Shown: positions 55,343 to 59,876 of the stretch, piece by piece
Layout: every line of letters starts with the position of its first letter
Position numbering within the stretch: the first letter of the stretch is position 1
Source: Anaerolineae bacterium
GTDB lineage: Bacteria; Chloroflexota; Anaerolineae; Aggregatilineales; Ch27
Assembly: GCA_013178165.1 (NCBI GenBank)
Contig: JABLXG010000001.1
Location: 329,605-393,604, forward strand
Length of the DNA stretch: 64,000 nt
Direction: 5' to 3'
The notes under the pieces: generated by a model
The model's database searches: none
What the model was told of the DNA's origin: nothing
What the model saw: only the letters and a program-made list of their open reading frames with translations
Translations under genes and position numbers: made by a program

Positions 55343-55371
55343 TTGACAATCGCCGCAGGGATGATTACAAT
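55343..55371 (+). promoter_or_regulatory. consensus promoter of the T-box leader
   Basis: TTGACA (55343-55348), exactly 17 bases and TACAAT (55366-55371). Start point would be near 55378. Confidence 0.9.
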
Positions 55372-55579
55372 GCGAACACAATCAGCCAATCCAATATGTA
55401 CAGGCTGCGAACGGGAGTAGTAAGCCATCGCTGTAGCGAGCCAGGGAGAGTGCAAGCCTGGCCGGGCATCCGCAGCGAATGCCACAAGGCCGAACTCGCC
55501 CGGGAGCCGCGGCGCTGAAAATCCGGTAAGCGTCGCCGGGAACGCCCGTTATAGCACAGAGTGGATGGCACACATTCAC

Positions 55580-55652
55580 GGGCCTGTAGCTCAGCTGGGA
55601 GAGCGCCACAATGGCATTGTGGAGGCCAAGGGTTCGAGCCCCTTCAGGTCCA
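55580..55652 (+). tRNA. tRNA-Ala (anticodon GGC)
   Basis: The 73-base sequence folds as a standard cloverleaf. The acceptor is GGGCCTG with CAGGTCC, including the G3-U70 pair that identifies Ala. The D stem is GCTC/GAGC, the anticodon stem CCACA/TGTGG with loop ATGGCAT (GGC at 34-36), the T stem AAGGG/CCCTT with TTCGAGC, and the discriminator is A. CCA is not encoded (CAC follows). It lies inside the T-box leader and has no separate promoter. Confidence 0.95.
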
Positions 55653-55691
55653 CACCCACGCGCGCCATCAAGCAGGGTGGTACCGCGGAGA

Positions 55692-55737
55692 GAAACGCCT
55701 TCGTCCCTACAAGGGGAGGAAGGCGTTTCCGGTTTTT
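55692..55737 (+). terminator. T-box conditional terminator
   Basis: GAAACGCCTTC (55692-55702) pairs perfectly with GAAGGCGTTTC (55719-55729), followed by GGTTTTT. The 5' arm region includes CGTCCCT, which would otherwise pair with the AGGG of the T-box as antiterminator. Confidence 0.9.
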
Positions 55738-55759
55738 ATGCAGCTCTAAAGGAAAACTA

Positions 55760-55934: not shown

Positions 55935-56072
55935 ATGGCAGGTCAAACCAGGAAGTCAATTATTGAGCGGATTCGTGAGCTGTTGGCCGAGCTTGACCGC
56001 CTTTTTCTCCCCCAGCCTCGCCCCGTGCCTGTGCCGGTGCCGGTGCGTGTGCGGCAGGATCGTCGCCGCTAG
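55935..56072 (+). CDS. small basic protein, 45 residues
   Basis: The protein begins MAGQTRKSIIERIRELLAELD, an amphipathic helix, and ends in a Pro-Val repeat (PRPVPVPVPVRVRQDRRR). GGGAG lies eight bases before the ATG. It has a strong terminator 25 bases after the stop, marking a separate one-gene unit. No family is recognised. The helix could bind membrane or nucleic acid; that is a guess from its charge. Confidence 0.65.
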   Translation: MAGQTRKSIIERIRELLAELDRLFLPQPRPVPVPVPVRVRQDRRR

Positions 56073-56330: not shown

Positions 56331-58847
<2,517 letters not shown>

Positions 58848-59007: not shown

Positions 59008-59074
59008 CGTTCATGCTGCACTCGTTAGAATGGTAGTTGCGAAACGACCACTGGACGAGGAGGCAGCATGAACG
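59008..59074 (+). promoter_or_regulatory. 12-bp inverted repeat over the IS982 transposase start
   Basis: CGTTCATGCTGC (59008-59019) pairs perfectly with GCAGCATGAACG (59063-59074), which holds the ATG at 59068-59070. RNA that enters from outside would bury the start codon; RNA made from inside the element past 59019 would not. Confidence 0.55.
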
Positions 59075-59876
59075 ACACCTACATTGTAACGGTATATGTC
59101 GTGCTGGATGATCTGTTGTGCGCTCTGCGGTATAGCGACGACGGGCGCGCGGAACTGAGCGCAGCGGAAATCCTGACAGTGGCAGTGGTAGCGGCCAAGT
59201 ACTTTCAAAATCATCACGAACGTGCGTTGTATCTGCTGGTCCAATTGGGCTACCTGCGTGCGTTCAGTGTGTCGCGCTTCAACCGGCGGCTGCACGCGTT
59301 GAGGGAGTGGCTGTGGCACGTCGCCGGGATCATGGGTGAAGTGTTGGCCAAGGGCAAGGTCTTCATCGTGGATACGCTGCCCATCCCCATCTGCAAACGC
59401 GTGCGAGCCAAACGCTGCCGCAAGGTGCAGGGGGCGGCGTATGCCGGGTACTGTGCGGCTAAACAGGAGCACTATTTCGGTTGGCAATTGCACTTGGTCT
59501 GCGATGCTGCGGGTGTACCCGTCGTTTTTGAGCTGTTGCCAGCGGCGTGTGATGAGTTGGTCCCGATTCAGGAGTTGTTGGCGGCCTTGCCGGAGGGCAG
59601 CCAAGTGGTCGCCGACAAAGGCTATGTCAGCCAGAAAGACGAACTGATCGCCTACTGCTATGGTGGTGTGCGTCTGATCCCCACCTATCGCCGCAACATG
59701 CGCGGCAACAGCCAGGAAGATGCCCGCCTGATCCGTCAACACCGCTCGATGATCGAGACGTCAATAGCCAGTTGGAGAAGATGGGTCTGCAACGCCTTCA
59801 TGCTCGTACCAATGCTGGTGTTGCCCTGAAGGTCTTGGCCTCGCTCATCGCCTTGGCCTTGACCAACGCTAACTAG
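59068..59876 (+). pseudogene. IS982-family DDE transposase, frameshifted near the 3' end
   Basis: VDTLPIPICKRVRAKRC with the first catalytic Asp (about residue 102), VVADKGYVSQKD with the second (about 184) and RSMIET with the Glu (about 231) identify IS982. After MIET at about 59760 the expected tail continues one frame back as VNSQLEKMGLQRLHAR and ends in TNAN with the TAG at 59874-59876. One base is therefore missing at about 59760. As read, the frame ends at 59829. About 38 tail residues are changed; the catalytic triad is retained. Confidence 0.85.

Follow-up and report, generated by a model that had tools for sequence, protein, structure and literature searches.

Leucine transcriptional T-boxes of the kind found before leuS (Rfam RF00230) have a Stem I with a CTC specifier, a Stem II region, a Stem III set between the RRRxG and AA motifs, the T-box sequence and a terminator, with an aminoacyl-tRNA synthetase gene downstream. 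The leader described here shares every one of these parts but differs in that its Stem III ends in a complete tRNA gene and not in a loop. Insertions in Stem III have been noted for translational T-boxes, without mention of a tRNA (PMC7583486). Two other described systems resemble the leader in part. In the B. subtilis thrS and thrZ T-box leaders, cleavage ahead of the leader terminator shortens the mRNA (PMC3997798); such a cut is inferred for our leader as well, but whereas RNase J/Y makes the cuts in B. subtilis and no tRNA is released, here they would be the cuts of tRNA maturation. The E. coli tRNA-tufB operon is a tRNA-mRNA co-transcript, and there, as inferred here, a tRNA is cut from a transcript that also carries a translation gene. 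However, the E. coli tRNA is a neighbour, a form that some relatives of our locus also show (L198-L201, below), whereas in the leader itself it lies inside the folded regulator. A tRNA gene inside a T-box is not mentioned in the passages searched of TBDB (PMC7778990), the structural review cited above (PMC7583486), an in silico survey (PMC2494555) or a 2025 riboswitch survey (PMC12452182). An initial sequence-only reading of the locus knew of no described case, and we too found no earlier description of the nesting in the open-access literature searched, which did not include the Vitreschak 2008 and Gutierrez-Preciado 2009 surveys; priority is therefore not certain.

The window, by which we mean the whole 64,000-nucleotide stretch of an Anaerolineae bacterium genome that was analysed, carries the leader on its plus strand. 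A sigma-70-type promoter, TTGACA-17-TACAAT (55343-55371; 11/12 matches), stands at its head, and a promoter scan of the window found no second promoter-like site between 55250 and 56340. In the RF00230 alignment, Stem I occupies 55404-55508, with the leucine specifier CTC, read by tRNA-Leu(GAG), at 55495-55497, and the Stem II and Stem IIA/B region runs from 55509 to 55553, its 3' end being CCCGTTAT. The RRRxG purine motif, here GAGTG, and the 5' arm of Stem III span 55559-55569, of which the arm GATGGC is 55564-55569; the 3' arm GCCATC (55664-55669) and the AA motif together span 55664-55671. At the tip of Stem III, joined to the arms by linkers of 10 and 11 nt, is a complete tRNA-Ala(GGC) without an encoded CCA (55580-55652 by RF00005, 62.8 bits; 55580-55653 as called by ARAGORN). 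The T-box sequence AGGGTGGTACCGCGG (55674-55688), which forms the 5' side of the antiterminator and has its TGGT bulge at 55678-55681, is followed by an intrinsic terminator (55692-55737) consisting of a hairpin (55692-55729) and a T-run (55733-55737), and then by the gene under regulation, leuS, an ORF identified as leucyl-tRNA synthetase (56331-58847).

Between leader and leuS there is a small ORF of 45 aa (55935-56072, plus strand; MAGQTRKSIIERIRELLAELDRLF...PVPVPVPVRV) that is conserved in about 20 relatives, is also found behind tRNA-Ala in L164-L166, where the T-box has been lost, and matched no Pfam family; its product could conceivably be a co-regulated small protein of unknown function. 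Downstream of leuS, an ORF at 59068-59829 (plus strand) reads, by eye, like an insertion-sequence transposase.

The RF00230 model, searched at a relaxed threshold, covers 55398-55711 from end to end (model positions 1-219 of 219; 75 bits, E 3.4e-16) and runs straight across the tRNA, which lies whole within a 92-nt insert between the two arms of Stem III. The score is under the curated cut-off of 93 bits, and for this reason a default-cut-off Rfam scan of the window reported the tRNA only and missed the T-box. Six related leaders score above that cut-off, full-length and across a nested tRNA (L026, 119.7; L130, 114.7; L212, 107.6; L076, 105.5; L215, 100.3; L023, 93.7 bits). The specifier fits leuS, and the genome has one tRNA-Leu(GAG). 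The RRRxG-Stem III-AA motif (here GAGTG, GATGGC-GCCATC and AA), with UGGN in the T-box bulge (here TGGT), is kept across 106 loci. The terminator, which would compete with the antiterminator, is seen in the leader fold as a hairpin and T-run; the minimum-energy fold of the leader lies well below those of shuffled sequences (z -3.5) and shows the hairpin, although a simple terminator scan did not flag it. Its T-run is just five T, beginning 3 nt past the hairpin stem, and a hairpin with T-run is present in 78 of 109 related loci as well. Because all testable sequence-level defining features are met, we file the leader as a T-box riboswitch containing a tRNA gene, an assignment made from sequence alone in which the read-through response is inferred. 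Other leaders of this kind may be overlooked by T-box scans at default cut-offs, as this one was.

The sequence-only reading had proposed a tRNA-Ala(GGC) nested in Stem III of a leucine T-box, and this is upheld by RF00230 across the tRNA, by ARAGORN and by RF00005. Its arms, linkers, specifier, G3-U70 pair and T-box motif were all exact, the consensus promoter it described held, and the terminator it placed downstream of the tRNA held by the fold, if not by the simple scan. It had named two outcomes as refuting, namely a T-box model that fails to score across the tRNA and relatives showing an independent tRNA gene that has a promoter of its own and is flanked by halves that are not a T-box; neither occurred, as the model does score there and the nesting persists in relatives, with no promoter at the tRNA.

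The nested tRNA looks functional. It folds into a cloverleaf with a GGC anticodon and the G3-U70 pair, and the acceptor stem is completely paired and G3-U70 invariant in 96/96 loci. A comparison of 30 diverse loci finds no cloverleaf pair broken, and 12 of the 21 pairs have undergone compensatory changes. CCA is encoded in 65 of 96 nested copies. The window genome has 45 tRNAs, with one each of Ala(GGC), Ala(TGC), Ala(CGC) and Leu(GAG), and the nested gene is its only tRNA-Ala with a GGC anticodon. Almost every relative likewise has exactly one tRNA-Ala(GGC), which in carriers is the nested copy, and the same is true of the isolates S. wolfei, S. palmitatica, T. lipolytica, two Desulfofundulus and Desulfovirgula. 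The sole gene of one tRNA depends on a riboswitch leader in the genomes tested. Another T-box in the window genome (L002, G000 contig C48, 1501-1769) ends about 100 nt from a tRNA-Cys(GCA) on the opposite strand (1868-1940) and is not nested.

The nested form is widespread. An isotype-blind pattern, requiring any tRNA T-arm 14-44 nt before GGTGGTACCGCG, matched 10 of 61 genomes, including the window's own, and in a partial scan of public genomes it matched at least 120 stretches. ARAGORN found a tRNA at 116 loci drawn from the bacterial genome scan and the relatives (111 are distinct by sequence, there being some duplicates across the two sources), and at all 116 it was tRNA-Ala(GGC). The other pattern matches (Exiguobacterium, Enterococcus and others), where no tRNA is within reach, reflect chance T-arms or truncated stretches. 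LeuS lies downstream in 111 of the 116; of the remaining five, three end near the T-box, and for L016 and L072 none was seen on the short stretch examined. The specifier context in most loci is GAACTC (Leu). Judged by record titles, the carriers comprise many Chloroflexota and Thermomicrobiales, the Bacillota Syntrophomonas, Desulfofundulus and Symbiobacterium, as well as Thermosyntropha, Desulfovirgula, Pelotomaculum and Thermaerobacter, and members of the Armatimonadota, Coprothermobacterota and Caldisericota; odd single labels, such as a 'Desulfovibrio' MAG (L117), probably reflect mis-binning, since the LeuS tree places them with Bacillota. With a pattern specific to tRNA-Ala, the nested form was found in at least 40 of 400 genomes of the window's phylum, at least 51 of 63 of Syntrophomonas's class and at least 24 of 120 of Syntrophomonas's phylum, all of them lower bounds because the T-box can also be spelled differently and the flanks can be longer. 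Of the first 30 tRNA-Ala(GGC) loci listed for the window's order, 24 are inside a T-box.

In 106 distinct loci, the two arms that lie between the RRRxG and AA motifs form 5.69 bp on average, compared with 2.45 for arms re-dealt among loci (200 rounds; sd 0.13, highest 2.82), and 41 different arm pairs are in use. As the arms pair well beyond re-dealt ones through changing sequence, Stem III is selected around the tRNA. Its register relative to the purine and AA motifs of the T-box is preserved, and the linker on each side of the tRNA has a median length of 6 nt; in L015, L055 and L126 almost no Stem III is left outside the tRNA. Of 96 loci, 64 have a promoter-like site matching at least 9/12 in the bin from -270 to -170 upstream of the tRNA, but only 5 have one between -110 and -10, and none of those reaches 10/12. 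On this evidence, which is that of sequence, there is one promoter, before Stem I, and none at the tRNA.

The relatives include several departures from this plan, which provide natural controls for experiment and for evolutionary analysis. In Anaerolineaceae-like genomes (L198-L201), a tandem tRNA-Ala(CGC)-tRNA-Ala(GGC) stands directly before a complete leucine T-box followed by leuS, apparently all in one transcript from one promoter (that of L200 was read by eye). In L212, L214, L215, L224 and L225, the T-box retains its nested tRNA-Ala(GGC) and has a tRNA-Ala(CGC) upstream; in the last two, this second tRNA ends only some 15 nt before Stem I. The tRNA precedes leuS without a T-box in L163, L211, L218 and L219, the T-box is present without the tRNA in L202-L204, and some other relatives have neither. 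The tRNA stands alone with a promoter in L149, L150 and L164-L166; L150, from the window's own family, has a closely similar promoter and has kept the tRNA but lost both T-box halves, and amounts to a natural T-box deletion. L223 has a nested tRNA with the T-box variant GGTGGAACCACG. The LeuS tree broadly follows taxonomy, with the nested state in a Bacillota part and in a Chloroflexota/Armatimonadota part, and requires at least 6-7 state changes as against 18.4 for shuffled labels (L223 was counted as 'tRNA_only', and L034, with a mispredicted start, and L029, a truncated stretch, were labelled by hand). Since the sample is enriched for carriers, the ancestral state is not fixed.

The nesting, its conservation across phyla, the pairing and motifs of Stem III, the functional-looking tRNA, the lack of a promoter at the tRNA, the terminator after it and leuS downstream are established at the level of sequence. 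The likely interpretation is a dual-use leader, in which one promoter serves a leucine T-box with the sole tRNA-Ala(GGC) at its Stem III tip and leuS downstream. The sequence-only reading had suggested such dual use, and the suggestion is supported in that it fits all the sequence evidence, although the mechanism, including the processing and the order of events, is inferred from sequence alone, without RNA data. Every transcript, whether terminated or read through, would contain the tRNA, so that tRNA-Ala(GGC) would be made constitutively, and uncharged tRNA-Leu(GAG), the expected ligand of the T-box, would decide read-through into leuS. Once the tRNA is excised, Stem I and the antiterminator would no longer be on one molecule, so the switch either has to act before that or has to function in two parts. 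The simplest solution would be for the antitermination decision to be taken during transcription, before RNase P and 3' processing excise the tRNA. It is possible that Stem III, which would hold the 5' leader and the 3' trailer together in a helix near the acceptor stem, itself delays RNase P, because pairing of a 5' leader with the 3' RCCA reportedly inhibits assembly of the catalytic RNase P complex (PMC9433436). Excision would leave a leuS mRNA with a short structured 5' end, resembling known T-box leader processing. Some lineages keep the tRNA alone or the T-box alone, which speaks against strict interdependence: neither part strictly needs the other. The short T-run of the window, set off from its hairpin, also weighs against the dual-use reading.

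Chance nesting was rejected on the strength of the single isotype at 116 of 116 loci and the arm-shuffling control, and an insertion peculiar to the window was rejected because the nested form recurs across genomes of several phyla. It could still be argued that the tRNA is an independent gene, transcribed from a promoter of its own and lying between T-box-like sequences by coincidence, as the tRNA standing alone with a promoter in a few relatives (L149, L150, L164-L166) might suggest. However, this is all but excluded by the end-to-end match of the T-box model across the tRNA, the same nesting in more than 100 loci of several phyla, the rarity of promoter-like sites just upstream of the tRNA (5/96 loci) and the co-variation of the flanking arms. 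That the insert serves the switch as a tRNA-like structural element or a decoy, and does not work as a tRNA, has in its favour only that it occupies the place of Stem III. It is very hard to reconcile with the genome's having no other tRNA-Ala(GGC), with the retention of G3-U70 and the anticodon through compensatory changes without a broken pair, and with the CCA encoded by 65 of 96 copies.

A more substantial objection is that a T-box split in this way no longer regulates, that leuS is constitutive or otherwise controlled, and that the two halves persist merely as flanks of the tRNA. Physical logic favours it, as excision of the tRNA cuts the sensor from the switch, and in several lineages the T-box is gone while the tRNA remains. 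Yet large divergence has left the specifier, the Stem III motifs, the T-box sequence and the terminators in place, some relatives score above the T-box cut-off, and unused halves would be expected to decay, as they have in L150; we consider this explanation unlikely. In the opposite direction, it is possible that there is active coupling beyond mere co-transcription, such that the leuS decision responds to how the nested tRNA-Ala folds, is processed or is charged, for example if Stem III stability or the timing of RNase P tunes read-through. In its favour, tRNA-Ala(GGC) is the sole isotype ever nested, and the leucine T-box the only kind that holds it; Stem III persists around this tRNA, joined to it by short linkers, and there are the loci with almost no Stem III outside the tRNA (L015, L055, L126). 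However, a single inherited nesting event, kept because the tRNA is single-copy, would look identical, and L198-L201 have the tRNA before the T-box instead.

With the dual-use leader as the preferred reading, two RNAs thought of as separate, a tRNA-reading regulator and a tRNA gene, are joined in one folded transcript, and the question arises of whether a T-box can reach its decision and remain functional as RNase P is cleaving it. A bolder reading, which we regard as no more than possible, is that the tRNA is the working distal part of Stem III, a deeply conserved nested RNA gene whose folding and excision by RNase P are timed against antitermination; equally tentatively, the arrangement may predate the split of the carrier Chloroflexota and Bacillota lineages. 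If this bolder reading is true, the supply of tRNA-Ala(GGC) would be physically coupled to that of leucyl-tRNA synthetase.
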